Made by a program: the position numbers and the translations under genes
Notes under the pieces: generated by a model
The model's database searches: none
What the model was told of the DNA's origin: nothing
What the model saw: the letters and a program-made list of their open reading frames with translations, nothing else
In this document: one piece after another, positions 6,397 to 64,000 of the stretch
Numbering within the stretch: the first letter of the stretch is position 1
Layout: every line of letters begins with the position of its first letter
Source: Rhodobacteraceae bacterium Alg231-30
GTDB lineage: Bacteria > Pseudomonadota > Alphaproteobacteria > Rhodobacterales > Rhodobacteraceae
Direction: 5' to 3'
Assembly (NCBI GenBank): GCA_900143615.1
Contig: FREU01000001.1
Location: 706,767 to 770,766, forward strand
DNA length: 64,000 nt

Positions 6397-6447
6397 CGAT
6401 ATTCGGAGGGGCCTTGGCAACGGGGTCAAATAAGGGGAGGAGACGCT

Positions 6448-7968
6448 GTGCCTGATGGCCAGTCCATAAATGCATCCGTGCTAGCGGCAGAAGGTGTGAG
6501 CAAATCATTTGGCTCAGTCCCGGTGCTGTTTTCGATCAGTATGGATATCCGTGCTGGCGAAGTGCACGCGCTGATCGGTGAAAATGGTGCCGGTAAATCG
6601 ACGTTGATGAAAATCTTGTCGGGATTTTTGCAGCCAACATCCGGACATATCAGTCTGGATGGCGCAGAGATTTCATTGCCGCCTAACGGGCAATCCGAAG
6701 CGTTAGGCGTGGTGTTGATTCACCAAGAGCTAAACCTTGCAGAACAGATGACCGTTGAAGAAAACGTCTTTTTGGGGCGCGAGCTGCGCAAAGGGGCGAC
6801 GCTGGATCGTGCCAGAATGCGTGACACTGTTGCGGGATACCTTGAGGATATCGGGTTGGAGATTTCGCCTGACAGTCGGATTTCGGACCTGTCGATTGCG
6901 CAAAAGCAGATGGTTGAAATTGTGAAAGCAATCAGTCGTGATGCGCGGGTCCTGATTATGGATGAGCCGACTGCTGCCTTGACTGAGGCGGAGACAGCCT
7001 TGTTCTTCTCACAGATTGAACGGTTGCGCGACAAAGGTGTTGGAATTGTGTTTGTCAGCCACAAGTTGGCCGAGGTGAGCGCTATTGCGGATCGCGTGAC
7101 TGTGTTGCGTGACGGGCAGTGGATTGCGACCCAAAAGGCGAGCGATCTGCCACCCGATGCGATGGCGCAAATGATGGTCGGGCGGGAGTTGTCCGATCTG
7201 TATCCGCCGCTGAATGAGGTGGATGTGGATGCCGAGAAAGTTTTGCAAGTTCAGGGCTTGGTCGCACCCGCAGTCAAAGGCATCAGTTTCGATTTGAAGC
7301 GGGGCGAAATTCTCGGGTTTTCGGGATTGATCGGCTCGGGACGTACAGCTGTGTTTGAGGCGATTTGCGGCCTTGCGCCAATTGAGGCCGGAACGGTGTC
7401 GGCGTTTGGCCAAGAGGGCGGGTTCCGCTCAGTTGCGGCGGCGCGCGACGCAGGGGTGGTCTACCTGACCAAAGACCGAAAAGAAAAAGGTCTGTTGCTG
7501 GCGCAAAAGATGCGGCCGAATCTGACACTGTTTGCTTTGCCGAAATTCCTGCGGGGCATGCGCATTGACGGTAAGGCCGAAGATGCGGCGCTGGAACGTG
7601 CGATCCGTCGCTTTGACATTCGCGCGCGAGATCCGAACGTGGATGTGGGCGACATGTCCGGCGGAAATCAACAAAAGTTGCTTTTGGCCAAGGTCATGGA
7701 GTGTGACCCCAAAATATTGATCATCGATGAGCCAACGCGCGGTATCGATGTGGGCACCAAACAGCAGATTTACCATTTCATCGCAGCGATTGCCGCCGAA
7801 GGCGTCTCGGTTGTGGTGATCTCATCAGAGATGCCCGAAGTCATCGGGCTGAGCCACCGTGTGGTGGTGATGCGCGAAGGTGAAATTACCGGGATTCTGT
7901 CAGGTGACGAAATTAACGAGAATGAAATCGTGCGCTACGCCGCGGGATTGAAGCGTGGGGAGCACTAG
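6448..7968 (+). CDS. Sugar ABC transporter ATP-binding protein (RbsA/XylG type)
   Basis: 506 aa with two fused nucleotide-binding domains. The first has Walker A GENGAGKST, signature LSIAQKQMVEI and Walker B VLIMDEPTAAL. The second has the degenerate P-loop GLIGSGRTA, signature MSGGNQQKLLLAK and ILIIDEPTRGIDVG, as usual for monosaccharide importers of the CUT2 family. It energises uptake with the permease and binding protein that follow. GTG start at 6448 after AGGGGAGGAGACG. First gene of the operon under the LacI-type operators. Confidence 0.95.
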   Translation: MPDGQSINASVLAAEGVSKSFGSVPVLFSISMDIRAGEVHALIGENGAGKSTLMKILSGFLQPTSGHISLDGAEISLPPNGQSEALGVVLIHQELNLAEQMTVEENVFLGRELRKGATLDRARMRDTVAGYLEDIGLEISPDSRISDLSIAQKQMVEIVKAISRDARVLIMDEPTAALTEAETALFFSQIERLRDKGVGIVFVSHKLAEVSAIADRVTVLRDGQWIATQKASDLPPDAMAQMMVGRELSDLYPPLNEVDVDAEKVLQVQGLVAPAVKGISFDLKRGEILGFSGLIGSGRTAVFEAICGLAPIEAGTVSAFGQEGGFRSVAAARDAGVVYLTKDRKEKGLLLAQKMRPNLTLFALPKFLRGMRIDGKAEDAALERAIRRFDIRARDPNVDVGDMSGGNQQKLLLAKVMECDPKILIIDEPTRGIDVGTKQQIYHFIAAIAAEGVSVVVISSEMPEVIGLSHRVVVMREGEITGILSGDEINENEIVRYAAGLKRGEH

Positions 7969-50957: not shown

Positions 50958-51974
50958 TTGAGTACTATCTTTAAAGCAATTGATCTGGCGCGTTTTCGCG
51001 CCGGAATTGCTGCCAACCTTAAAAAAAAGCTATTCTCTTTCACAGACACGCTTCCTGAGCTTCGAGTAGAGACATCCCTTGAAGTCCCATTTGCTCAAGA
51101 TGTTGTTATTGTGCGGCGCAAGCAGGGGCTGGATCTTCTGATTTCGGAGGCGATGCAGCATCGCCGAGCGGAGTTGTCTTGGTTGCTGGGAGGCCGTTTG
51201 GCGGCCATGGTTTACTGGCAACTTCAAGCACAAGCTGAAGTTGAGAGAATGACCGTTCATCTTAGTGACGGGGATCACGCTAGCAACGCTGGCTTTTTCT
51301 TCTCAACAAACCTGCAAAACCGGACGCCGGTGCCTGATGTGTATTTTTTTCGAAAACGCGGGTTTGCCGATCTTCGGGAGGCGATTGGCACTCTTGATGT
51401 CCCTTGGGCGCAGAGAAGCCGTGAATTTGTTTGGCGTGGCGGAGCAAATGGTAACGGTTTTTTCAATTTTGTACCCGAGTTGGCGCAGCATCCGGCAACA
51501 TGTCAGCGGGTTAGGATGGCTTGGGCCTGTCAGGAGAGCGAAGTGGACTTTGGATTTGTGCCCCCCGTAACAGGGCCAAGATACGCAGCCATTCGGAAGG
51601 CAGGATTTTTGCGAGACAGAGTTGCTGCAGAAACTTGGTTTGGGCGCAAGTACGCAATCGACATCGACGGATTTTCCAATACTTGGGACAACCTGTTTCA
51701 CCGCATGTTGATGGGGTGCTGTGTCTTAAAAGTCGAAAGCGAATTCGGGTTTCGGCAATGGTATTATGACCGGCTTGTTCCTTGGTGCCATTTCGTGCCG
51801 GTCAAGGCGGATTTATCGGATTTGCATGAGAAGATTGCTTGGGTGAAGGACAACGACAGGCAAGCAGAGGAGATTGCGCGCGCGGCGCGTGCGCTAGCCT
51901 TGTCGCTGGATTTTGGCAGCGTGGCCCATGAGGCTGGACAATTGATTGAGAAAAACTGGGAGCGGCACTTGTGA
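50958..51974 (+). CDS. GT90-like (CAP10/LPS-modifying) glycosyltransferase
   Basis: 338 aa, TTG start. The C-terminal half contains the GT90/LPS-modifying pattern KYAIDIDGFSNTWDNLFHRM followed by CCVLKVES and FRQWYYDRLVPWCHFVPVKA, close to GT90/CAP10 proteins that use UDP-xylose or glucose. It overlaps the next gene, a UDP-sugar epimerase, by 4 bp. Together they probably build and add a sugar to a surface polysaccharide. Assignment is by pattern and is moderately sure. Confidence 0.78.
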   Translation: MSTIFKAIDLARFRAGIAANLKKKLFSFTDTLPELRVETSLEVPFAQDVVIVRRKQGLDLLISEAMQHRRAELSWLLGGRLAAMVYWQLQAQAEVERMTVHLSDGDHASNAGFFFSTNLQNRTPVPDVYFFRKRGFADLREAIGTLDVPWAQRSREFVWRGGANGNGFFNFVPELAQHPATCQRVRMAWACQESEVDFGFVPPVTGPRYAAIRKAGFLRDRVAAETWFGRKYAIDIDGFSNTWDNLFHRMLMGCCVLKVESEFGFRQWYYDRLVPWCHFVPVKADLSDLHEKIAWVKDNDRQAEEIARAARALALSLDFGSVAHEAGQLIEKNWERHL

Positions 51975-52915
51975 ATTGGCAGGACCAACATGTGATTGTC
52001 GCCGGTGGTGCCGGTTTTGTCGGCGGACATCTTGTGCGCGCAGTGCTGCAACGCGGCGCGCGGGTCACCGTATTGGACAACTTTCACACCGGAATGCGTG
52101 ACCGCTTTGCCGGAGTTTCAAATGCGCGCCTAAAAATCGTTGAGCATGATGTGTGCGCACCGATTGATCTGAGCTGTGATCTGATTATCAATTTGGCTTG
52201 CCCCGCATCCCCCAAGAAGTATCAGGCAGCGCCGCTGGAAACCTGGCGCACGTCTATTTTTGGGGCTGTCCATTTGTCAGAGCTTGCACTGCGACAGGGG
52301 GCACGATTTGTTCAGGCTTCAACCAGTGAAGTGTATGGTGATCCTTTAGAGCATCCCCAAAGGGAAAGTTATTGCGGTAATGTGAGCTTTACCGGACCGA
52401 GGGCGTGTTATGACGAAGGCAAGCGGGCGGCTGAGACTTACTTGATGGATTTGCATCGTGAAGTTGGATTGGATCTGCGCATTGCACGTATTTTCAACAC
52501 ATATGGGCCAGGCATGGCCCTTGACGACGGGCGGGTCGTCTCAAATTTCGTGGTACAGGCGCTGAGTGGTCGCGTGCTTACGATCTATGGGGATGGTCTG
52601 CAAACACGGTCCTTTTGTTATGTCTCTGACACAGTGGACGGTCTTTTGGCGCTGGCCGAAACTGATGATTGTGCTGATAAGATTTTCAATATCGGCAACC
52701 CAAAGGAGCAGAGTGTTTTGGATCTCGCCAACTTGGTGGCAGAGATGACCAAACAGGATCTTTCGGTTCAAAATGGTCCGGCTGCAGGCGATGATCCTCG
52801 TAGGCGATGCCCCGATATTTCACGTGCCCGGGCCATTTTGGGCTGGTCTCCAAAAGTCTCTCTTGAAGAGGGATTGCGCAGCACGCTTGCAGAATTTCGC
52901 GGTCGGTTGAGCTAA
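51971..52915 (+). CDS. NAD-dependent sugar epimerase/dehydratase (SDR extended, UDP-xylose synthase-like)
   Basis: 314 aa, GTG start overlapping the glycosyltransferase stop. N-terminal Rossmann motif VIVAGGAGFVGGHL, catalytic Ser-x-x-x-x-Tyr-x-x-x-Lys region (QASTSEVYGDPLEHP; CYDEGKRAAE with YxxxK). NTYGPGMALDDGRVVSNFV and RSFCYVSDTVDGL resemble UDP-glucuronate decarboxylase. It could supply UDP-xylose to the adjacent GT90 enzyme. Confidence 0.88.
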   Translation: MNWQDQHVIVAGGAGFVGGHLVRAVLQRGARVTVLDNFHTGMRDRFAGVSNARLKIVEHDVCAPIDLSCDLIINLACPASPKKYQAAPLETWRTSIFGAVHLSELALRQGARFVQASTSEVYGDPLEHPQRESYCGNVSFTGPRACYDEGKRAAETYLMDLHREVGLDLRIARIFNTYGPGMALDDGRVVSNFVVQALSGRVLTIYGDGLQTRSFCYVSDTVDGLLALAETDDCADKIFNIGNPKEQSVLDLANLVAEMTKQDLSVQNGPAAGDDPRRRCPDISRARAILGWSPKVSLEEGLRSTLAEFRGRLS

Positions 52916-53020: not shown

Positions 53021-53110
53021 GGAGACGTGGCCGAGTGGTCGAAGGCGCTCCCCTGCTAAGGGAGTAAACGGGGAACCGTTTCGAGGGTTCGAATCCCTTC
53101 GTCTCCGCCA
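53021..53110 (+). tRNA. tRNA-Ser (anticodon GCU)
   Basis: 90 bases including encoded CCA. Acceptor GGAGACG/CGTCTCC, anticodon stem CTCCC/GGGAG at 53048-53064 with GCT at 53055-53057, and a long variable arm with stem AACGG/CCGTT that marks tRNA-Ser. Its 3' half is duplicated 1420 bp downstream, which makes it an integration site. Confidence 0.97.
53053..53110 (+). repeat. att repeat, left copy (3' half of tRNA-Ser)
   Basis: 58 bp starting at the first base of the anticodon loop and running to CCA. It matches 54473-54530 at 54 of 58 bases. The four differences form two base-pair swaps in the variable-arm stem. Confidence 0.9.
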
Positions 53111-53486
53111 TCACACTGAAATGTAAAGATAATTTATTTACTGTTTCAGTGTTGTGGCGTTCAGCAGACTCCCTTTCTGGAAAAATCGGTGAAAATGTAA
53201 GGATTTTTTGTTAATTAAAAACAATCACTTAATTTTTTGTGGAAAAAAGTCGTGCAAAATCCGTGCACGAAAACGGAGCTTAGTAAAGAGTTGTAAATGC
53301 GCGAACCACAGCAACTCTGGAACCAAGCAAGCAGACTAAAGCACATGATCTCCTAGTGGTGCAGACTACGGCTGTAAGCATTATCAGAAACGTCTGGCTA
53401 AACATCGGGATTGAGGCTCCCTAGTATTCTCTGGAATATCGTCTGTTTCGTACAGTAAGTTGACGGAAATCTTGAGGGGAATCGGC
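53111..53486. other. Gene-free start of the island
   Basis: About 376 AT-rich bases after the tRNA with no credible gene. Contains the paired CGTGCA repeats at 53251-53267. Confidence 0.5.
53251..53267 (+). repeat. CGTGCA repeat pair, left end
   Basis: CGTGCA at 53251-53256 and 53262-53267, 11 bp start to start. The same arrangement recurs at 54393-54409 near the other att copy. Candidate integrase arm-type sites or an operator of the XRE regulator. Confidence 0.55.
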
Positions 53487-53922
53487 TTGCAATTACTCCA
53501 CTTTGACGAGACTAACCTTGAGGAGAAGGCTGGCGACTTCTTGATCTATGGTGGAATAATGATCGATGGCACAACGGCCTAAGAATTCTCCGCGGCCATT
53601 GATGAACTGCGAGACCGGCACGGCGTACCTCGCGTCTATAAACTCAAATTCAATCCCGGCCCTGAAGGCTTCTCCCTCGATCAATGCCCACACTCGAGAA
53701 ACAGATCGTTTTCTTCTCAGTGCGAAAACGCTCCTTGGCCTTGTTGAACCATTGTTTTGGCGACAGGAAGCCGGTGGAGACATTCCTGAAAATGGGCTCC
53801 ACTTTAGTCCTAAGGTGGTTAGGTCTCCGAGTTACAGGCGTAAGTATCTCAATTTGAAGGAGTTCCTAAAAAGTGCTGGCGTGAGTACTCTTCAAGACCT
53901 AAATATTGGCGCAAGCCGGTAG
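53487..53922 (+). pseudogene. DUF3800 protein remnant
   Basis: Begins near TTG 53487 with a frame reading LHFDETNLEEKAGDFLIYGG, the DUF3800 N-terminal pattern with an acidic residue pair. It is interrupted by TAA at 53580-53582 (TTA*EFSAAIDELRDRHGV) yet continues in the same frame for about 40 codons. The family-like C-terminus (LLGLVEPLFWRQEAGGDIPE; LHFSPKVVRSPSYRRKYLN) is in another frame ending at 53922. The middle of the normal protein is missing, so a stop, a frameshift and a deletion have destroyed the gene. Confidence 0.72.
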
Positions 53923-53924
53923 CT

Positions 53925-54257
53925 TTAACTTTTCGCAACATTCAAAAGTATTTCTTGCAACGTCGCAGCAGATTCATTTGATAGGCGTTCCACTAATCTA
54001 GCCGCTTCTATTTTCTGATCTGAATACGCCTCAGGCTGATGTACGAGTGCTATAGGTACTGAAAGAACATCGCAGACCTTGAGCATATTTGAATAGCTAA
54101 GTGTCGTGCGCCCGTTGATAAACTGCCCAAGCCCGTTTCTTGACATCCCCGCCTGTCGGGATACTACCGACAAGTTGAGGCGTCTCTTAGCTGCAAGCAT
54201 ACGAAGGTTTTCCCGAGCGATTTGTATTCTAGGATCTACATTGTCTTGCTCGGCCAT
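53925..54257 (-). CDS. XRE family transcriptional regulator
   Basis: 110 aa from ATG 54257 (GGGAGCG upstream; open frame to 54323 is less likely). Helix-turn-helix at about residues 28-65: NLSVVSRQAGMSRNGLGQFI. Lies between the two att copies, on the minus strand, next to the DUF3800 remnant. Probably controls genes of the integrated element, most of which are now lost. Confidence 0.85.
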   Translation of the reverse strand: MAEQDNVDPRIQIARENLRMLAAKRRLNLSVVSRQAGMSRNGLGQFINGRTTLSYSNMLKVCDVLSVPIALVHQPEAYSDQKIEAARLVERLSNESAATLQEILLNVAKS

Positions 54258-54392
54258 AATGCTTCGCTCCCATATTGTGCATTTGGACTCAGGTGTAACG
54301 TCGCTATTTCTTCCGATCAACAAGACGCGAGAGTGTAAACATACTTTCTTGCATTAAAAACTTCTCATTTGCACGTTGTTGTGGTCGTAAAG

Positions 54393-54409
54393 CGTGCAAA
54401 AATCGTGCA
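54393..54409 (+). repeat. CGTGCA repeat pair, right end
   Basis: CGTGCA at 54393-54398 and 54404-54409, 11 bp apart as in the left pair, about 63 bp inside the right att copy. Confidence 0.55.
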
Positions 54410-54472
54410 AGTGACTTTTTTTGTTGTAAAAAATGCTCCAAATTCAGCATCTTATGTGTGAGCGTACTGCCA

Positions 54473-54530
54473 CTGCTAAGGGAGTATACCGGGAACGGTA
54501 TCGAGGGTTCGAATCCCTTCGTCTCCGCCA
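54473..54530 (+). repeat. att repeat, right copy (partial tRNA-Ser 3' half)
   Basis: 58 bp matching 53053-53110 with four substitutions. The substitutions exchange two base pairs of the variable-arm stem (AACGG/CCGTT becomes TACCG/CGGTA). No acceptor 5' half or D-arm precedes it, so it is not a tRNA gene but an integration scar. Confidence 0.9.
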
Positions 54531-54559
54531 TAAACACCAACTATGGCTTTGTTTTTAAG

Positions 54560-54582
54560 GAAAAATCAGCAAATGATTTTTC
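54560..54582. repeat. 9-bp perfect inverted repeat
   Basis: GAAAAATCA (54560-54568) and TGATTTTTC (54574-54582) around GCAAA, 30 bp beyond the right att copy. Followed by a direct repeat AGCCCCACA. Could be a terminator or an integration-related site. Confidence 0.5.
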
Positions 54583-54777
54583 TCAGCCCCACATTCAGCC
54601 CCACACAGTTTAGTTGTCGATCAATTGCCGGATATCGGTTCATTGACCCAGCTGTCGCAATCAGTCTGTTATAGGGATATTCCGTAAGGATGGCTTCGCG
54701 AAGACGCGGGCCGCATACTAAAATAGTTTCTGGATGAACGATTTGTCTTCGAAACACTCTAACCGAGAGTGCTCGAT

Positions 54778-55221
54778 ATGTCGAAATACATCCGGCCGTC
54801 TAATGACACCCCTGATCTGTTTGATTTTGAAGACAAACCTACCAAAGAAAACACGCGAAAAAGAAAAGCCAAATCAAGAAATGAACTGCTCGGTGAGGTT
54901 TGTAATCCCCTAGGCGTTCAAATCACCGAGGCGACGTCTGTGTCTCTTTCCCCCGCCGACCAACGCTACCTGTCGGATCGGCAGGTAGGTGAACGCTTCA
55001 ATGTTTCGCGCAAAACCATCTGGAAATGGGTAAAGCAAAGGGAAGGCTTTCCCGCGCCGTTAAGGGTCTCTCCAGGTACGACTCGGTGGCAAGATGAAAA
55101 GGATCTGATGTTGGATTATTACCAATACAGGCTTACGCCAGGGACGGAGAGGTTCAGGCTGGCCAAAGAGTTGGCAAAGAAGCGTGAGGCTGCTGTAGAG
55201 AGCTTTGAGGTAATTGAGTAG
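54778..55221 (+). CDS. AlpA-like/MerR-type HTH DNA-binding protein
   Basis: 147 aa from ATG 54778. A charged N-terminus is followed at about residues 63-110 by an AlpA/excisionase-like helix-turn-helix: YLSDRQVGERFNVSRKTIWK, then FPAPLRVSPGTTRWQ, the usual AlpA layout. AlpA proteins control integrase or excision genes of islands. It lies right after the att copy with no integrase nearby. Confidence 0.82.
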   Translation: MSKYIRPSNDTPDLFDFEDKPTKENTRKRKAKSRNELLGEVCNPLGVQITEATSVSLSPADQRYLSDRQVGERFNVSRKTIWKWVKQREGFPAPLRVSPGTTRWQDEKDLMLDYYQYRLTPGTERFRLAKELAKKREAAVESFEVIE

Positions 55222-55337
55222 GTCCGGTAAATTGAGGTTTGACCGCCGCGTTAACGCGAGAGCGAATTTCAGATCTGCTGATTACATGTCAGTTGATCGA
55301 ATGTCAGCTTCCTCGGGCTTTAGTGGAAGTGGCGCGT

Positions 55338-55370
55338 TCGCAGCGAATGTCCACTTTCCGCCCTTAATGA
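55338..55370 (+). repeat. GTCC-x-CTTTCCGCCC-type intergenic repeat, copy 1
   Basis: GAATGTCCACTTTCCGCCC and its flank resemble AAAGTCCGCATTCCGCCC at about 59445-59462. The partial match suggests copies of a small dispersed element in this island; weak evidence. Confidence 0.35.
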
Positions 55371-55421
55371 AGATCTGAAATGTCTGGTTAGACTGCAAAT
55401 TTCCGAAGCAAAATGCAAAAA

Positions 55422-55943
55422 TTATTCTTCACATTCCAGACGCTCTCCACGACGCCATTTCTCCGGTGTAACAAACTTACCCTGCCATATCCCTCGTCTG
55501 CCATTTTTGGCTTCCTGCTGAACTTCCAGGTACGTTTCTCGCATATCGGCGGGCAAATAGCGCTCATAAACTACTGCATAGCCTGAGCGGACCATTTCGA
55601 GATTTATGTCTTTATTGCCGATGAAAATTGTCGCGACCGGGCGTCCATATGTAGAATCCCCCGTAAAATGGTAGGTAGCCTCTCCCACCAAAAACCCAGA
55701 AAGAACGCGCGTTGCCCTTTGCCCGCAGGGATAGCAACTGCCAGACCGACTTTCGCACAATTGCGCTTTCTCCGGAGTGTCTATTCCAAACATCCGTATT
55801 TCAATCGAAGGCGTATCCCCATCCTGAATGTAGCTGGCTTCGACACCCTCCAAAAAAGACTTGTATGGCTCAGCATTGACACCCAGTGGTATTAGTCCTG
55901 CGGCCATACATAACAAAAAGCGTGTCAACCAACTTCCAGCCAT
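55422..55943 (-). CDS. Secreted thermonuclease-like (SNase) protein
   Basis: 173 aa from ATG 55943. Signal peptide about residues 1-25 (ending GVNAEP). SNase-like core: ASYIQDGDTPSIEIRMFGID followed by TPEKAQLC, then CGQRATRVLSGFL and YGRPVATIFIGN, ending with a WRRGERLE tail. The catalytic-Glu position (G-x-E-A in the family) appears to read Gln-Arg-Ala, so the enzyme may be inactive or altered. Extra cysteines (LCESRSGSCYPC) suggest disulfides. Same strand as the next gene. Confidence 0.75.
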   Translation of the reverse strand: MAGSWLTRFLLCMAAGLIPLGVNAEPYKSFLEGVEASYIQDGDTPSIEIRMFGIDTPEKAQLCESRSGSCYPCGQRATRVLSGFLVGEATYHFTGDSTYGRPVATIFIGNKDINLEMVRSGYAVVYERYLPADMRETYLEVQQEAKNGRRGIWQGKFVTPEKWRRGERLECEE

Positions 55944-56016
55944 CCTATTTTCGTCCTTCTTTTGTAGCCGTTTTGAGCGTTTGATCACTTTTCCAGTTCA
56001 CAAAATGGAACACTCG

Positions 56017-57360
56017 TTACTGCCGTGGCGGAACGATTACACGTAGGCTTTTCTGAATTGAAAGCTCCGGTGCATCCAACAAACCTGCACTTTCTTTTTC
56101 TCTTGTTGCCGAAGCACATTGTTGACGATTGTAAAAACCCGCGGAACGGCAGATCTGAGGGGTTTCCCCTTCTAGATCACCTGCCTGGCAGGCCCGACAC
56201 ATCCGAAACGTCGCGGCATCTAATTGAAGCGAATAATCAAGCACGGATCTAGCAGGTTCTTCCGGTGTAAAGAGCTGCGAACCACTTCGATTGGTGAACC
56301 AAGTGTCGACATGCTCCATAACTTTTTCAGGATCAAGAATGTCGGTTTCCATGTTGAAGCGTGATCCAAGCAAACCACGGCTGGAACGGGGAACGCGGGC
56401 CGCAGAGTGGCATGAGATGCAGGACGATCTGATGTTGTCTGCAGGGCCGTTGGCGCGACCTTTAAAGCCTAACGTGAACCGTTCTGGCCAACCGTACATT
56501 ACGCCCTCCAAAGATGGGTTTATCCAGCTCTCAACTATGTCGGTATTATAAACTCCCGGGTCATCTCCCCACTGAAGTGAAACGGGAACCAGATTGTCAA
56601 ACAAACCATCACCGGTTTGTGGCCCCACCCACCCAAACGTGCCGAATACCCAACCAGTTTCGGCTGCGCGCCGGTCCTTGACAGCAATATCGACCTGAAG
56701 CAATCGAACGGCGCGCTCTACCCGGTCCTCCGGATCACCATTGGAGGCCGTCGGATCAATCAGTGCTTTGAATTCAGGCCCGCCCTGCAAATAGGTGACT
56801 TCCGAAGGCTCCGCATCGGTAAAAAGAAACTTGATTGAGACCGTTTCACGTGGGAACCGCACCTGAACCGGCAGTGAAGCGCTGCACGGATTCTCAAAGA
56901 TTTCACCCAGGGTTGCTGCACCCGCTCGGTTGTAAAATCCCACGGCCCAGACCTGATATCCGGGTGGGCTATCCGGTGCGAGGTCGCTTTGCCTCGGCCC
57001 TCTCTCTTTAGTCAAGCCCATCCTACGTTCACGACCGGATGTTCCGTAGTCCATCCAAAGCGAAATCCACCAGTCTTCGCCGCCAGTGCCAACTAAACGG
57101 TCACCATCAATCTTAAATCCGGCTTGGATTTGAGAAAGAACAGCATTCATGTAATCCTTCGGGTCCGCTTCAAAATCGACTGATAGCCATGGTGATGCGG
57201 AAACTGATGGGTTCGATGGATAGTCCGTCCGCCAGGAAGCCTTTGGCCCATTACCTGAATTCATGGTGCTACCAGTGAAATTTTCGCAAGATTCAGCTGA
57301 AACTACCGGTGCGGCCACGGTGCCTAAACAGACAAGTAAGAAAAAAACCCAACTTCGCAT
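56017..57360 (-). CDS. Secreted protein with one c-type haem motif
   Basis: 447 aa from ATG 57360, GGAGGT at optimal spacing. Signal peptide about residues 1-22 (LVCLGTVAAPVVSAES). One CxxCH motif, CISCH, at about residue 314 (SSCISCHSAARVP), plus a cysteine pair in RMCRACQAGD near the C-terminus. The rest is beta-rich and not recognised. A periplasmic monohaem cytochrome or a haem-linked enzyme is plausible. 73 bp upstream of the nuclease-like gene on the same strand, so possibly co-transcribed. Confidence 0.65.
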   Translation of the reverse strand: MRSWVFFLLVCLGTVAAPVVSAESCENFTGSTMNSGNGPKASWRTDYPSNPSVSASPWLSVDFEADPKDYMNAVLSQIQAGFKIDGDRLVGTGGEDWWISLWMDYGTSGRERRMGLTKERGPRQSDLAPDSPPGYQVWAVGFYNRAGAATLGEIFENPCSASLPVQVRFPRETVSIKFLFTDAEPSEVTYLQGGPEFKALIDPTASNGDPEDRVERAVRLLQVDIAVKDRRAAETGWVFGTFGWVGPQTGDGLFDNLVPVSLQWGDDPGVYNTDIVESWINPSLEGVMYGWPERFTLGFKGRANGPADNIRSSCISCHSAARVPRSSRGLLGSRFNMETDILDPEKVMEHVDTWFTNRSGSQLFTPEEPARSVLDYSLQLDAATFRMCRACQAGDLEGETPQICRSAGFYNRQQCASATREKESAGLLDAPELSIQKSLRVIVPPRQ

Positions 57361-57501
57361 TTCGACCTCCAAATTTACTCATGGTAGATCTTTGACTGAT
57401 TTCAATCAACTCTTGGATTAATCGCGGCAGGAATGATATTGTCTGTGGTTGAGAATGTTTTGGCAATTGGAACGGCTAGTATCCACGAAAAGGAAGATAG
57501 A

Positions 57502-59082
57502 ATGGCGAAAATCCAAGTGGACATGTTCGCTGTCGAGCTTGGTCTCGCGGTTTTACTTCAGTTCAATACGAATGACGACAGTATCTGCGTCTTAGCGGAT
57601 GCCGGAAGCAAAAAATACAAAATTAACGATCGCCTTCCCAAGGCGATGTCTCCACAGGTAGGTGACCGTCGGCGGATTGATCTAGTGATCGGCACCCATT
57701 ACGACGGCGACCACCTGAACGGTCTGGTGGACATCATAGAAAACCCAAATATCGAAATCGGTGAAGCATGGATGCCTCCCGTGGCAAATGACGCACAACC
57801 ACCCGAGCTAAACTTCGCACTCGAAAACGAAAACCTACTGGGGATCCAATTCGCAGCAGAAGATGGAGCTGAAGTTCTAGAAGATTACCTGCACTTCAAA
57901 GCCAATATGTGCGAAAGCTGTTTCGAAAAGGAACAGGTCGATTACGAAGCATGGGGACAAGTTCGCAAGTCTGTTCGGACGTCTCTAATAATGGAAGCGG
58001 CAACGCTTCGAAGGTTAGGACAAAAGGACAAGTCAGAGTTCGAATGGCAAAGTTTCTTTGAAGCCCATCTTGAGGACGCCCGCGAGGCCCTTGGCGCAAA
58101 AAGTACAGGACATGCCGACCACGAAATCCGAGGGGTAAACGAGGTTTCTGCGGAAGAGGAGGCATCATTTGCGCGCCTTCGCCAAACGAGGCTTCAAAAA
58201 AATGGCAGCTTACTCCTGGACCCGTATCCCTATCTTGAACCGTACGATTTCCCGGAGAACTTTAGCGACCCGAAACCTCTCGCCCATATGCGCGCAGCCG
58301 CCGCCGAAGACGCCATCAACGCCAAAGCGCTTGCGAAAGTCGTCAAAGCGCTAAAGGCCAGAAACATTCCAATCCGTTATGCCACTATTGATGACGGACA
58401 CCCGAGAAAATTTTTCTGGAATGCAAATAACCGAAGATTTGAGCCCCGACACAACGCTGCGGAAAGTTCCTTAAGCTTCACTCTGCTCGGCCCATCAAAG
58501 GGCTTGGTCAAAAAGCATTGGAAAAGTCTGCCGGTCGGCGCCTACACCTACGCATCGTTTTTAAAATCAGTTCCAATTGAGAAGATCACTCCAAGCAACG
58601 AACTAAGTTACATTGGCGTGTTCGAGTGCTTCGATCAGCGCATTCTGATCAGCGGCGATGCTGGCTGCGTGGATTTCAAGTCCGCAAAAAACAAGCCATT
58701 CCATCCCGACCTTATCGCCGAGCTCGGAAAATTGGACATCGTTCAGATTGCGCATCATGCTGGCCACAATGCGTATTTCTACAACAGCCTCCTTGCGAGT
58801 CCTTTTGTCGACCAGACCAACACGGCGTACTTTTTGTTGTCACATGGAACAGAAGACAAGTACCGACCCTCAGCGGTGTTCGGAGAATTCATCGAAAAGC
58901 TTCAAAAGAACAATGATACAGTTCAACTGCTGTTTTCTTCAAAACCGCGAGAACCGAAAGTGCGTGATTTTACAGACCTTTTTGCGCCGACAGTAGGCAC
59001 AAAAGCTGAAAGCGGTGACGTGCGGTTGGTTTATGAGGATAACGCCTGGAAAGTCATTTCTCACAACATATCAATGAAGTAG
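57502..59082 (+). CDS. Metallo-beta-lactamase-fold protein (ComEC/Rec2-like)
   Basis: 526 aa from ATG 57502 with AAGGAAG upstream; the frame is open to 57433. MBL metal motif HYDGDH at residues 66-71 in LVIGTHYDGDHLNGL; further metal ligands likely in LISGDAGCVD and IAHHAGHN. A long helical insert separates the first motif from the rest. The layout resembles the ComEC/Rec2 MBL domain and MBL-fold proteins in mobile defence loci. No signal peptide, so cytoplasmic. Convergent with the helicase gene; probable nuclease or phosphodiesterase. Confidence 0.75.
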   Translation: MAKIQVDMFAVELGLAVLLQFNTNDDSICVLADAGSKKYKINDRLPKAMSPQVGDRRRIDLVIGTHYDGDHLNGLVDIIENPNIEIGEAWMPPVANDAQPPELNFALENENLLGIQFAAEDGAEVLEDYLHFKANMCESCFEKEQVDYEAWGQVRKSVRTSLIMEAATLRRLGQKDKSEFEWQSFFEAHLEDAREALGAKSTGHADHEIRGVNEVSAEEEASFARLRQTRLQKNGSLLLDPYPYLEPYDFPENFSDPKPLAHMRAAAAEDAINAKALAKVVKALKARNIPIRYATIDDGHPRKFFWNANNRRFEPRHNAAESSLSFTLLGPSKGLVKKHWKSLPVGAYTYASFLKSVPIEKITPSNELSYIGVFECFDQRILISGDAGCVDFKSAKNKPFHPDLIAELGKLDIVQIAHHAGHNAYFYNSLLASPFVDQTNTAYFLLSHGTEDKYRPSAVFGEFIEKLQKNNDTVQLLFSSKPREPKVRDFTDLFAPTVGTKAESGDVRLVYEDNAWKVISHNISMK

Positions 59083-59502
59083 ATTTCGCTTCAAAAGCTA
59101 AAACTTTAACCGGTGACCGGAAATTTTTTGGTAATTGATCGAGAACGACAAAGTAGCATTTGCGGAACTCGATGAGGATCGTTTCAAAATGCTGTTTGAA
59201 CCTTTCAATGAACGGTTCGTCGAAAGACCTAATTTCGTTGGGTCAGTAGCGATTTGGACAGAACGGGTAACTTTCGGTCACTCAATAACAGTTTGATACG
59301 TGAACACAGCAAGCGGAAGTTTCGCAGTGCGGTTGGACAATCGCGATGCGGCTTAGTACTCAACGTGCATTGTTGATTTGATTTTGCCAGATATGCAAAG
59401 AGAAACTTTCTACGCATCGCGGACATCGAGAGCGTTCCGCAGAGAAAGTCCGCATTCCGCCCTCAATTGCTGAATCAACCAATTTCAAAGACACTTAAAT
59501 CG
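59083..59502. other. Gene-free interval between MBL and helicase genes
   Basis: About 420 bp with no supported gene. Near 59440-59465 is a GTCCGCATTCCGCCC stretch similar to one at about 55350. The genes on either side end here. Confidence 0.45.
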
Positions 59503-61476
59503 CTACAACCTAACGCCGCTTACCTCATTTAATCCGCACTGCTCCAGATACCGGAAAGTTTCGTCATAGTAAGACGAAGGCCGCGTCGGATCGGTATCGT
59601 CCCCCTGGGGAACAAAAATCACAAACCCTTGGCGAGCCCTCGTCAACAAGACGCGATACGCATTCAGTAGATACGTTCGATTCGTATCACTACGGACATT
59701 TTGCCACTTTGTCCCTTTGAACGCATGAAACTGCCACTCGTCTCCGGTGCGCCGTAGATCAGCATCCCAGCACACACCAGCCCAGTCCAGTTCCAGCCCC
59801 TGAATGTCAAACTGAGTGGCCACATCCTCCAGGTAGTATGAAGAACGGACATCTGATTTGTCGTTCAGAAACCAACTTGCTGGGTCGATACTCGATTTCA
59901 CGTGAATGCCTTCAGGTCTGAGCCGAAGTGCTCCAGAAGATGCGACTAGTCCAAAACGTTCGCTCCCCCGGGCGTGGTGCTTGAGCCACGATCTTGCCAG
60001 GTCCAGATCACGTGTGACTGCGATAGGATATCGGTCGCTGAGTTGATCCAAAGTTGCGCGGGCGCCGCTTGGGTTGCCATCCAATACATCGCTGACAAAA
60101 GCCGAAAGCTGTTCTGCTCGAAACGATCGCATGGAAACTGACAGGTGAAGGTCTTCGTGTTTCCGGATGTGCGGTGCTGCAAGCATGTCCACGGCCTCTT
60201 GGGAGGCTGTGTAGTGACGATCTTCGAGCAGATCTGAGGCATTCACTTGCCAGTCCGGGAACTTCTGTTGGAGCGCCATCAACCATTCTGCGAGACCGGC
60301 TTCGCCAGTATTTATCTCTTGGCCACCGCCAATCAGGCACACAATCGTGCACCAATCTTCGTGCCGATCCATCACGCTTATGAGAAACTCGGGTTCCGAC
60401 ATGTCAAAGTCAGTTTGGCCGCGCTTGGTCTGCATGAACTTAGATGCCTGATCACTAGTCCATGCGCGTTGAGCTTCGTCGAAGACAACAACCTTCTCGA
60501 AAGGAACTTCTGTGGACCCAACGTAGTGATCCCGGAAATGGTGAATGTTCTGAATGAAACGCCTAACAGAGCGAAGGGCATCACCCTTTTTGACCTTTTC
60601 TCGGGTTACCTGATCCCGGGCCAAGGCTTCTCGCAATACGTCAACCAATGGTCCGTTGCCTGACAGAAAAACAGCATGCTCATCTTGGTGGCGCTCGGCG
60701 CGTTTGGCAGCGATGTTCAGGCCAGCCAGAGTTTTTCCAGCACCAGGCACACCAGTGATAAAGCAAATGGATTTTTGACTGTCCCGCTTCGAGGCTTCAA
60801 TGATTTCCGCAATACGATCCGATGTGGCTTTGAGGTTTTTTGCACCTGCATCCGAGCGAGAAATCTCTTCTACGGCGTGACTGCGATAGAGCGCCTGTGC
60901 AGCTTCGATGATTGTTGGTGTAGGGCGGTAACCTGCGGCACACCAAGCACCTACCTCCATGTCGTCCTGGCTGGCCATCTGTGGCCCACCCAGCGCCAAT
61001 GCGGCTGTGAGGCTGCGTGCCCCCGCCAACACCGGCGCAGCCACCAGGTCGTCCGCCCAGCGCGCCGTTGTTGGCGTTGTCTCCGCTCGAGTCGCAACGA
61101 GTACTGGCAGAATCGGCAGTGTGTGGCACCCTTGGTGAAAATTCTTTAAGTCGAGCGCATAATCGTGAACCTGATCGATTGCGTAGCTGTCAAAGCTCGA
61201 AGAGCCCACTTTGAACTCGACTACGAAGACCATTCCGTCGCGGAGTATCAAAACGTCGGCTCGTTTACCCATTCGGGGAATTGAGAATTCAAAAAAGATG
61301 TGGCCGCTCGTGTCTTGTGCCAGCTGGTCTTTCAAAATGGTGATCTGCCCTAGCCAGGCATTTCGTTGCTCGTGTTCGAGTGCGTGATGATGAGCGCGAG
61401 TAAGCTCGCCTAAAACTGCGTCATCTGATGTTGCCAGAAATTCAATAATTGAAGCTGAATAGTATGCGTTTTTCAT
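59503..61476 (-). CDS. PD-(D/E)xK nuclease fused to DUF2075 helicase
   Basis: 657 aa. The N-terminal part has a nuclease-like site: E63, D74 and E87-x-K89 (KRADVLILRD... VVEFKVG). A superfamily 1-like ATPase follows: Walker A GVPGAGKT at 242-249, Walker B VVFDEAQRAW at 331-340, and the DUF2075 C-terminus with QGLELDWAGVCWDADL and NAYRVLLTRARQGFVIFVP. Cytoplasmic. DUF2075 proteins often occur with restriction and other defence genes. A role in cutting or unwinding foreign DNA is likely but not shown. Confidence 0.85.
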   Translation of the reverse strand: MKNAYYSASIIEFLATSDDAVLGELTRAHHHALEHEQRNAWLGQITILKDQLAQDTSGHIFFEFSIPRMGKRADVLILRDGMVFVVEFKVGSSSFDSYAIDQVHDYALDLKNFHQGCHTLPILPVLVATRAETTPTTARWADDLVAAPVLAGARSLTAALALGGPQMASQDDMEVGAWCAAGYRPTPTIIEAAQALYRSHAVEEISRSDAGAKNLKATSDRIAEIIEASKRDSQKSICFITGVPGAGKTLAGLNIAAKRAERHQDEHAVFLSGNGPLVDVLREALARDQVTREKVKKGDALRSVRRFIQNIHHFRDHYVGSTEVPFEKVVVFDEAQRAWTSDQASKFMQTKRGQTDFDMSEPEFLISVMDRHEDWCTIVCLIGGGQEINTGEAGLAEWLMALQQKFPDWQVNASDLLEDRHYTASQEAVDMLAAPHIRKHEDLHLSVSMRSFRAEQLSAFVSDVLDGNPSGARATLDQLSDRYPIAVTRDLDLARSWLKHHARGSERFGLVASSGALRLRPEGIHVKSSIDPASWFLNDKSDVRSSYYLEDVATQFDIQGLELDWAGVCWDADLRRTGDEWQFHAFKGTKWQNVRSDTNRTYLLNAYRVLLTRARQGFVIFVPQGDDTDPTRPSSYYDETFRYLEQCGLNEVSGVRL

Positions 61477-61752
61477 AGCTCAGATACTCTGCGCATAGGG
61501 GCAAGAAGGCAAGTTACGACAACAACTTAAAGGTTATCAGTTCGGGTGCTGTGCGATAGCAGGATGTCTTTGGTCGGGTTCAGAGGGAAGCAAGAATTAG
61601 GAGTATTCGCAACGTTGCCCGAGATGTGCGCTTTGAAGTGACCAGAGTTGCTTTGCCCCGGCGGCTGGCTGCAAACCTGGTAAACCCGTCAAACCCGGGC
61701 GCGAATTCATGCTCTAGGTTTGACAGCATTTTGAGGTGAACGACCCTGTTGA

Positions 61753-62592
61753 TCAGAACGGAAATTCCATGTCAGCCCCCATGTCATCGGGTACATCCGG
61801 AACATGGCTGCCAACAAATTCTACGCGATAACGTTTTGATCCCTTTGAATCGGCATAGCTGCGCAGTACTCGATGGCCAACAATTCGATCCTTGTGCTTC
61901 AACAGCAACCGGCCAATGCTCTTGGTGTTGAACTGGCCATTTCGCGTCATGGCAACAAGAGCCCCGTAGAGTTCTTTGATCTCAGGAGAACTGGCCTCCT
62001 CCGCCATTGCACCGATTTCAGCGAGGCCATATTCGCGATCGCCCAGCGCCGCGACCCAAGCATCCAAAAGGCCAGCAAGCTCGGATTTCATAGGATCATC
62101 CAACATGATTCTCTCACGCGTCACCGCTGGATCAGGCAAACCCAACCAGAGCAACGCGTCTCTCACCAGGTTCCATTCCCGAAACGACCCGATAGGTGTA
62201 GACTGTTTGGGGCGACCCGCTGCTATGTAGGCGCGAAGAACAGTCAGACCTGCTGCCACCAGTTGTGTTCGGTTTTCTGCGGCTTCCTCCCGTGGGTCAA
62301 AGTCATGTTCAACAAGGTCAGGCCGTTCTGTTTGCGGGTCCAGGCGGCACACCAGGGTGCGCCGCCCCATGTCTCCGGCCACTTCAAGGTTGTTTCCGGT
62401 GGCCATGAACAATGCGTTGGTAGGGGTTTTAGCAACTTCGGATTTCCCGAGGATGAAGCCATCGGCGTCCAATATGATCGCCACGGCGGCACCTGTTATT
62501 TTGACGAAATTAGATTGTGAATAATATGCTTCATGCTTCATGCTTCTGGCGGGAACGAAAACTTCTCGCCAGGTACGGTAAACCGGGAGCAC
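61753..62592 (-). pseudogene. N-terminally truncated phage/plasmid primase-helicase fragment
   Basis: 279-codon frame whose middle reads TPTNALFMATGNNLEVAGDM then GRRTLVCRLDPQTERP, the hallmark of superfamily 3-like helicases in phage and island primase proteins, followed by WNLVRDALLWLGLPDP. Such proteins are usually several hundred residues longer and begin with a primase domain and the helicase Walker A, absent here. The first 30 or so residues look non-native. Best read as a remnant of the replication gene of a mobile element. Confidence 0.65.
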
Positions 62593-62714
62593 AGGTTACG
62601 CTGGTTGCGCCGAGAGCCGTCGATGGGGGTGGGGTCAGCCTTGCGGAAAGCGTCGCGCCTGTTGACTGCTGGATACGAAGTGCAAACAAGAATAAATTTT
62701 TGAGAAGTTGAGCC

Positions 62715-64000
62715 ATGGCAGAACAAGATAACAATCGTCTATTTGAAACCATCGGTAAGATGGAGACACATGAAAGCCTCGAACGGCTTGAAGCAAATAT
62801 TCGTAGACTTGGCGCCCTGAATGATGATGTCGAGCAAGCTCTACAGGACCAATACAAAGTCATAGGGCGCGCACTCGTAGCCGCTAGAACTGGTTTGGAT
62901 TTGTCCGACCTGTCCGAGCCAGAAGAAAAGATTGTACTAGCTGTCAGCGAGTATGTTGGTCTTCAAAAACGCGCGGGGAAGAACTCGCCGCGAACACTTG
63001 AACAGTTGAAAAACCGGGGTCTACTGGGCGCTGCAGAAGTATCGGTCATGAAACCAAAGGCGACACAAGGCTTCGAAGTTTTGCATGACGCCGATAAAGA
63101 TGAGCTGTCGTATGAACAGATTATCATTGACCATCCAGACTACTTCACTCCTCGAGCCCTTTGGTACGCCCGCAAGAGACTGGAACTTGGCAATCCAACC
63201 GAAAAGCCTCCGGCAGCATCAGACAATCCAACGCAAGGCCGATGCGAACTCCTGCTTGAATGGCTATCCGAGCGCAGCATTCCAACCGGTTGGAGAATTA
63301 CACCATTCAGCAATTTAGAAGCTGCTGCGGCTATTGGCATGGAGGACATGCAGAGGTTTGGGCGAGTTCAAGGAAACATCCAGTCCCGCATAGATTTTGC
63401 TTGCTATGCGAGCGGGCTTCCACCCTTGGGGCTGACTGCTGAACATCCTTTCCCAGATGCCTGGAGCCAACAAGAACGCACGTGGGCTTTTCCAATTGCC
63501 GAGATGCAGAAGGCAGCGCGGAAAAAACAATGGAAGAAATCAGATTTTGACAGGATTTTGGACAAGACACTTGAGCTCCCAGCTGGAGCCAGCGGGGTCT
63601 GGAAACAAGAATTAGCGGAAAACGAACAAGGCGTTCGCGACTGGGCATTCAGCCTTGCCGACGGCGTGACCATTAGTGATCAGGATGTGGAAACACCCGG
63701 CGTCAGTATTGAATCACCGTATTGGATTTTTGTCTGTAACCCCAAGAAGTGGGCCATTGATGCATTCCTGGAACAAAGGATTGAAGTGGATTCCTGGGGA
63801 GTGCGTGATGCGGACGTAAGAAGGATTGCGCCCGGACAACTGGGCTTTATCCGCGTGGGAGTGGACCGCAGGACGGAAGCTGAACGTGACGGGCGCCCGA
63901 AGTTGGAAGCAGGAATCTATGCGCTATGCGAAGTCATTTCTAAGGCTTATGAAGCAGCGGGGGCCGATGCTGGTTTCTGGACAAAAGGAGAAGAACCAAA
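62715..64000 (+). CDS. EVE-domain protein, partial (runs off window end)
   Basis: At least 428 residues from ATG 62715; no stop codon before the window ends. The frame is open throughout. Residues 1-330 are largely unrecognised, with a helix-rich start (MAEQDNNRLFETIGKMETH) and a stretch GRVQGNIQSRIDFACYASGL. From about residue 336, YWIFVCNPKKWAIDAFLEQR then APGQLGFIRVGVDRRTEAE is typical of an EVE (PUA/YTH-like) fold, which reads modified bases. EVE proteins commonly accompany modification-dependent restriction enzymes. A catalytic domain may lie beyond the end. Confidence 0.78.
   Translation, partial: MAEQDNNRLFETIGKMETHESLERLEANIRRLGALNDDVEQALQDQYKVIGRALVAARTGLDLSDLSEPEEKIVLAVSEYVGLQKRAGKNSPRTLEQLKNRGLLGAAEVSVMKPKATQGFEVLHDADKDELSYEQIIIDHPDYFTPRALWYARKRLELGNPTEKPPAASDNPTQGRCELLLEWLSERSIPTGWRITPFSNLEAAAAIGMEDMQRFGRVQGNIQSRIDFACYASGLPPLGLTAEHPFPDAWSQQERTWAFPIAEMQKAARKKQWKKSDFDRILDKTLELPAGASGVWKQELAENEQGVRDWAFSLADGVTISDQDVETPGVSIESPYWIFVCNPKKWAIDAFLEQRIEVDSWGVRDADVRRIAPGQLGFIRVGVDRRTEAERDGRPKLEAGIYALCEVISKAYEAAGADAGFWTKGEEP

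Follow-up and report, generated by a model that had tools for sequence, protein, structure and literature searches.

A small element without a detectable integrase probably supplied the 3′ half of the only tRNA-Ser(GCU) gene found in a Rhodobacteraceae bacterium

How does a single tRNA gene come to be followed, 1.4 kb downstream, by a second copy of its 3′ half that departs from it only by matched changes in one stem? The question is raised by a window of 64,000 nucleotides, the whole stretch of DNA analysed here, which lies on a 1.12-Mb contig (C10) of Rhodobacteraceae bacterium Alg231-30 (G000; genus probably Shimia). ARAGORN finds one tRNA gene in the window, tRNA-Ser(GCU), which is the only full-length gene with a GCU anticodon found in this genome; the displaced copy is a 3′ half without a 5′ half, in the same orientation (Table 1). 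We consider it very probable that the 1,420-bp interval is a small element integrated in the sole tRNA-Ser(GCU) gene, and that the att copy of this element, with a variable-arm stem of type A, now completes the gene. Site-specific recombination in the anticodon loop would have let the element in, with a tRNA 3′ half of its own, of stem A, in its att site; the older 3′ half, of type B, would have been moved 1.42 kb downstream, probably ahead of an island that was already there.

Table 1. Features of the tRNA-Ser(GCU) locus in the window, and elements without detectable integrase at the same tRNA in other genomes.
Feature	Genome	Positions	Strand	Basis or content
tRNA-Ser(GCU), stem type A	G000	53021..53110	+	ARAGORN; probably chimeric, with a host 5′ half and, from the anticodon loop onward, an element-derived 3′ half
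attL, att copy within tRNA-Ser(GCU)	G000	53053..53111	+	First base of anticodon loop to just past gene end
Arm-type integrase-site-like repeat, GTGCA-N6-GTGCA	G000	53252..53267	+	199 bp right of anticodon-loop start
DUF3800-type gene remnant	G000	53505..53672	+	73.8% DNA match to a DUF3800-annotated gene on a Salipiger profundus plasmid
Cro/C1-type helix-turn-helix gene	G000	53925..54323	-	PF13443, E 7.7e-7, above its cut-off
Second arm-type repeat, GTGCA-N6-GTGCA	G000	54394..54409	+	79 bp left of displaced copy
attR, displaced tRNA-Ser 3′ half, stem type B	G000	54473..54531	+	Probably the older 3′ end of the gene
Second, probably older island	G000	54532..64000, past window end		Helix-turn-helix, SNase-domain, MBL-fold-like and Schlafen-group-3 helicase genes
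L163 element	Ruegeria sp. R14_0			One long ORF, Schlafen AlbA_2 domain
L182 element	Rhodobacteraceae bacterium SB2			Two ORFs: one with GIY-YIG domain, the other without Pfam hit
L187 element	Hyphomicrobiales MAG			One long ORF, methyltransferase domain

The two copies form a direct repeat (53050-53111 and 54470-54531) with 92% identity and 1,420 bp from start to start. A sequence-only reading had described a 58-bp repeat beginning at the tRNA-Ser anticodon loop; the start stands, the length is 59 bases with four mismatches, and one extra mismatch lies at 53052, just 5′ of the loop. All four mismatches of the 59-mer fall in the stem of the variable arm and none elsewhere: the arm is AAACGG-GGAA-CCGTTT in the tRNA (type A) and ATACCG-GGAA-CGGTAT in the displaced copy (type B), so that the alignment bears out the two matched changes noticed before, A-U to U-A and G-C to C-G. 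The arm loop is identical in both copies and the predicted minimum-energy structure is the same for both arm versions. A whole-genome search with E up to 1 returned five matches, namely the two copies and three tRNA-Ser genes with other anticodons. Displaced copies of exactly this sequence were found in one of 394 family genomes, G000 itself, a figure to be read as a lower bound since most genera of the sample are represented by a single genome and the pattern was strict.

Compensatory evolution in tRNA stems is common, and an ordinary integration or duplication might have been followed by mutation of one copy, or by its conversion by another tRNA-Ser gene; at the varying base of the arm loop the GCU and GGA tRNAs also agree in 13 of 21 genomes. 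We give this explanation scarcely any weight. It has to produce exactly two compensated pairs and nothing else, an outcome that random placement of four substitutions in the 59-mer gave in 38 of 2,000,000 simulations, in keeping with the earlier remark that random decay would not be expected to leave such a pattern. It also has to account for the recurrence of the same two stem states across the species tree, and neither stem A nor stem B is carried by the GGA, CGA and TGA tRNA-Ser genes found in G000, which speaks against these as donors. As a separate observation, the arm-loop bases of tRNA-Ser(GGA) and tRNA-Ser(GCU) partly co-vary between Shimia species, and the GCU stem is off the phylogeny.

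The locus can be compared with known classes of mobile DNA. The anticodon loop is one of the crossover subsites listed for tRNA islands (PMC4383910), and here tRNA identity runs from the anticodon loop to the 3′ end, as in att sites of that class. Islands of the Islander type, site A class, are likewise marked by an intact tRNA with a displaced fragment (PMC4383910), and our locus has both, with the fragment from the same tRNA and in the same orientation; unlike those islands, its copies differ by an arm swap that preserves the stem. The pipeline described in PMC4383910 also tests for an integrase gene inside the interval, where we detected none: the 19 reading frames of at least 40 aa gave no hit to a profile of the G012 integrase and no match to the integrases of L286, L235 and G012, and Pfam found no integrase domain in the ORFs scanned. 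This agrees with what had been read from the sequence. Elements that are flanked by att sites and lack integration genes are known as CIMEs (PMC5704250, PMC3146451). The 1.42-kb element is CIME-like: att sites stand at both ends, no genes for integration or transfer were detected and, as in the elements described in those papers, it is flanked by attL and attR and probably sits in tandem with an island. It departs from a CIME in that its end repeats match those of a prophage rather than an ICE.

The helix-turn-helix gene is the only clear gene of the element; the DUF3800 remnant has no full-length ORF, and the short frames scanned in it gave no Pfam hit. A search of 99 other genomes gave no relative of the 1,358-bp interior. 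A plasmid search with the interior returned one short DUF3800 match, and a phage search, whose query included the att repeats, returned 36 records; the 20 listed covered 4-8% of the query and only its tRNA ends. Putative arm-type repeats stand on both sides of the core. The sequence of the left one, GTGCAAAAYCCGTGCA, taken as a pattern, occurs once in the 25 genomes of the genus, in this element. The spacing of the two GTGCA-N6-GTGCA repeats, +199/-79, lies close to the +173/-80 of a prophage in Pseudosulfitobacter pseudonitzschiae DSM 26824 (G458). The score of the end-to-end repeats was reached by none of 300 shuffles in G000, G458 and G024; the repeats are weaker in L182 (4/300) and G012 (8/300) and not significant in L163 (32/300) and L187 (299/300). 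A GTGCA pair at -79/-69 adjoins three of 51 displaced copies, those of G000, L159 (which is G458) and L235, the last being the one stretch of a viral contig where repeats and att site occur together. The integrase of L235 was considered as a partner of the GTGCA repeats and dropped, because two elements may be joined in L235.

Arm-type repeats at either end of the interval, without a detectable integrase between them, fit the suggestion, made from the sequence, of a reduced element. Such an element would have moved by an integrase acting in trans, or would have lost its own integrase by deletion. A prophage or island whose middle was deleted, instead of a mini-element that moved as such, is quite possible, just short of probable, and is compatible with our main account; the DUF3800-type gene is a remnant, and elements are known to be reduced to a form that lacks integration genes (PMC5704250). 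Against it, both ends keep the arm-type repeats at prophage-like distances, and elements of 1.8-2.0 kb without detectable integrase occur at the same tRNA elsewhere, two of which (L163 and L187) have one long cargo ORF. In all, three more elements without detectable integrase were found at tRNA-Ser(GCU), L163, L182 and L187, with lengths of 1,771-2,044 bp and, within each, identical arms in both tRNA copies.

Which of the two copies is the newcomer is best seen outside Shimia. In G458 the tRNA has the arm AAACCGCAAGGTTT and the displaced copy, 38,344 bp away, has AGGCCCGGAAGGGTCT. Its congener G469 is an empty site with an uninterrupted tRNA that carries the displaced-type arm. Upstream DNA to the end of the tRNA is 96.1% identical between the two over 3,800 bp, and the displaced copy of G458 with its flank matches the tRNA 3′ half and flank of G469 at 92.5% over 4,929 bp, a match that starts four bases before the displaced anticodon loop. 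Six genomes were searched: the four further congeners with a full gene all have the displaced-type arm, and the sixth genome, G471, yielded no full-length GCU gene at E up to 1e-12. The 38-kb insert encodes an endolysin and a DNA-transfer protein (two ORFs were searched), and an integrase-like ORF. Since displaced arm and flank in G458 match the empty site of G469, the comparison of these sequences shows that there the displaced copy is the original and that the prophage supplied the present tRNA 3′ half. This prophage resembles the 1.42-kb element in its tRNA, in the kind of arm swap and in its GTGCA-N6-GTGCA ends; it differs in being prophage-sized, in its endolysin and integrase-like ORFs and in its arm alleles.

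No empty-site relative of the Shimia locus was found, so that the direction there is by analogy: we infer that the 1.42-kb element, and not a lost predecessor, brought the 3′ half of the tRNA in G000, and that, of the two copies, the displaced one is older. The sequence-only reading had held that one copy was brought by an element whose att site came from a working tRNA-Ser of another lineage and swapped the 3′ half of the host gene. Intact genes of the genus do show both stems, and the empty site in Pseudosulfitobacter points the same way. The foreign copy would, however, be the copy that now forms part of the tRNA instead of the displaced copy; as both copies share the same arm loop, the other lineage was probably another Shimia.

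Another Shimia genome, G012, repeats the A/B difference, with stem A in the tRNA and stem B in a displaced copy 41.8 kb downstream; a tyrosine-integrase ORF of this 41.8-kb island ends about 40 bp before the displaced copy. Ten of the 42 genome-contig stretches of our pattern scan were traced into their genomes, and two more of them belong to G024 and G012. In the 12 genomes where both copies were read, a count that leaves out G462, whose tRNA was not read, the arms differ in three (G000, G012 and G458). They are identical in the other nine (G024, G457, G459, G460, G461, G463, G464, G465 and G466), which counts against our main account. So does G013, the sister of G012, which has stem A beside a flank like that of the displaced copy of G012 (84.6%, 104 bp), a combination that integration alone does not explain. 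It is what one would predict for G012 and G013 if strands were exchanged 3′ of the variable arm, in the T loop, in which case the foreign arm is the displaced one and the tRNA still has its own. We regard a T-loop exchange as improbable: the match to the tRNA starts no more than a few bases from the anticodon loop in the displaced copies printed, and at the Pseudosulfitobacter empty site the displaced arm is that of the host.

A different arrangement was seen in two genomes: L338 (G467 C16:297620) and L337 (G471 C87:9458) are copies of the tRNA-Ser(GCU) 5′ half only, which end just past the anticodon loop and continue into sequence partly similar in both genomes. These are possibly elements that carry a tRNA 5′ half.

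Anticodon-loop integration with a donor arm raises the question of how the arms are distributed across the genus. A full-length tRNA-Ser(GCU) was found in 24 of 25 genomes, our own included (the genus being probably Shimia); none was found in G001, an assembly rated 100% complete, possibly owing to a contig break at the repeat. Stem A (AAACGG/CCGTTT) is present in eight of the 24 intact genes (G000, G024, G010, G013, G018, G003, G012 and G008), stem B (ATACCG/CGGTAT) in 13, and G023, G006 and G014 have other stems. Except for the variable arm, the parts of the gene printed are identical in all 24. On a tree of rpoB and ychF, whose deep nodes are weak, the A/B state needs six changes over 21 labelled genomes, and 43% of 5,000 label shuffles need six or fewer; there is no A/B signal on the tree, and stem type does not follow the species tree. 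Among the well-supported conflicts, G010 (A) stands beside G021 (B), and G012 with G013 (A) beside G007 (B). The arm loop, unlike the stem, follows the tree (four changes, P 0.014), so that exchange probably takes place mostly among close kin, or else the loop re-evolves; a naive cassette model of long-distance transfer does not predict a loop that follows phylogeny and a stem that does not. Similar sequence lies behind the tRNA in G004 and G023 and in G003 and G009, and behind the displaced copy of G012 and the tRNA of G013 (81-87% over 104-198 bp), despite differing arms.

Had the related genomes carried the same two copies with no islands, integration would be hard to maintain; long displaced copies occur in three of the 25 (G000, G012 and G024), with G018 showing two contig ends at its tRNA. 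In that genome contig C37 ends and contig C71 begins at tRNA-Ser(GCU), as an att repeat left collapsed by assembly would cause.

It is also conceivable that the stem of the element equalled that of the host, and that later homologous recombination with a congener over the tRNA and its upstream DNA changed the tRNA. DNA at 50958-52915 of the window has a 67% match in G010 and none in G021, the sister of G010; G000 and G010 thus have in common this upstream block and stem A, and G021 has neither. At only 67% identity, however, the block argues against recent transfer between the two, and integration suffices to explain why the displaced copy has a different stem; we hold recombination with a congener to be highly improbable. 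The same stretch of G000, between ychF and the tRNA, contains by eye an epimerase-like ORF.

The earlier reading had proposed, as an alternative to a reduced element, one of several tandem insertions, and had advised a look beyond the window for an integrase and a third att copy. An integrase fragment is indeed present (G000 C10:785857-786237, PF00589, E 1.3e-7), 24.6 kb beyond the displaced copy. No third att copy was found in a mismatch scan of G000 C10:756767-856766 (about 97 kb of it downstream), nor elsewhere in the genome at E up to 1, other tRNA-Ser genes aside. Sequence after the displaced copy resembles, weakly, the sequence directly after the tRNA in G017 (79.7% over 138 bp, tRNA bases included). 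This flank and the integrase fragment suggest that the 1.42-kb element was inserted in front of an island already present. The genes named in Table 1 for that island lie at 54769-61476 and are possibly defence-like cargo.

Does the arm travel between phages and hosts more widely? Our pattern scan yielded 110 stretches of viral contigs and 42 of genome contigs, in which an automatic split assigned 60 copies as displaced (21 genome, 39 viral), although at least L158, L178, L277 and L299 among them carry the tRNA 5′ half, L222 and L224 are cut at a contig end and L282 repeats L189. With 34 of these 60, the arm has 16 bases, in 19 distinct versions; in 18 of the 19 all six positions pair (G-U counted as a pair), compared with 9% when halves of different arms are combined. 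The 20 distinct arms of other lengths include 14 that are fully paired in a simple register and six that are not.

Near-identical phages may carry different arms. L285 or L286 differs from L243 at eight of 16 arm bases, with flanks that are 99.7% identical over about 1,400 bp on the left and 99.4% over about 160 bp on the right; L243 may be a chimeric assembly of the arm. In L286 the att site has an integrase immediately to its left and phage-type genes to its right (RusA-like resolvase, primase/helicase-like, 2OG-Fe(II) oxygenase), an arrangement that looks like an attP. Looser sets of this kind are L210/L232/L250, L241/L269 and L196/L248. Shared flanks with different arms indicate that arm and flank are exchanged separately, and we infer that a crossover in the anticodon loop on entry together with one 3′ of the arm on exit would have that effect. 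The same segment of the tRNA seems to pass among related phages and bacteria. More generally, the variable arm sits between two invariant blocks and is probably exchanged as a unit between hosts and elements. As an isolated observation, the viral contig L268 has reverse-oriented TGCAC repeats at about 6430-6460, upstream of a full tRNA-Ser(GCU).

We tentatively hypothesize, while thinking it rather doubtful, that temperate phages and islands reciprocally exchange tRNA-Ser arms with their hosts, with the arm as a base-paired cassette that travels and keeps a record of earlier integrations, and with mini-elements using the same att sites. After integration in the anticodon loop and excision 3′ of the arm, the host would be left with the arm of the element and the element with that of the host.

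Parts of this picture have precedents. That an island restores its tRNA, that crossovers fall in the anticodon loop, and that tandem arrays and islands with 5′ fragments exist is established (PMC4383910, PMC8371274). For the mycobacteriophage Boilgate at attB-4 (tRNA-Lys), the attP and attB cores differ at five bases and a functional tRNA is predicted at attL (PMC10865867), and in this respect sequence change at a restored tRNA is already known; paired, stem-preserving changes of a long arm and recurrent host exchange are not described in the available text of that paper. The att sites of archaeal plasmids of the pT26-2 family span the variable loop of tRNA-Ser and tRNA-Leu (PMC6972569), and a Roseobacter-group phage is reported at a tRNA-Thr gene (PMC11288001). 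In the accessible portions of the open-access literature we found neither compensated swaps of the arm nor its exchange between near-identical phages, an absence that is weak evidence.

Mobile DNA that overwrote the 3′ half of an essential tRNA gene has left an unusually clear record in another genome, and at our locus an essential, apparently single-copy tRNA gene seems to evolve via overwriting by mobile DNA and not by point mutation, with the tRNA fold kept because working tRNAs are the source of the donor arms. The arm could act as a natural barcode with which to order tandem insertions and to tell the original copy. Island finders that require an integrase would miss mini-elements such as this one. 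If the proposed reciprocal exchange is true, an essential tRNA gene evolves by infection, and mini-elements without integrase and with little cargo share the same att sites.
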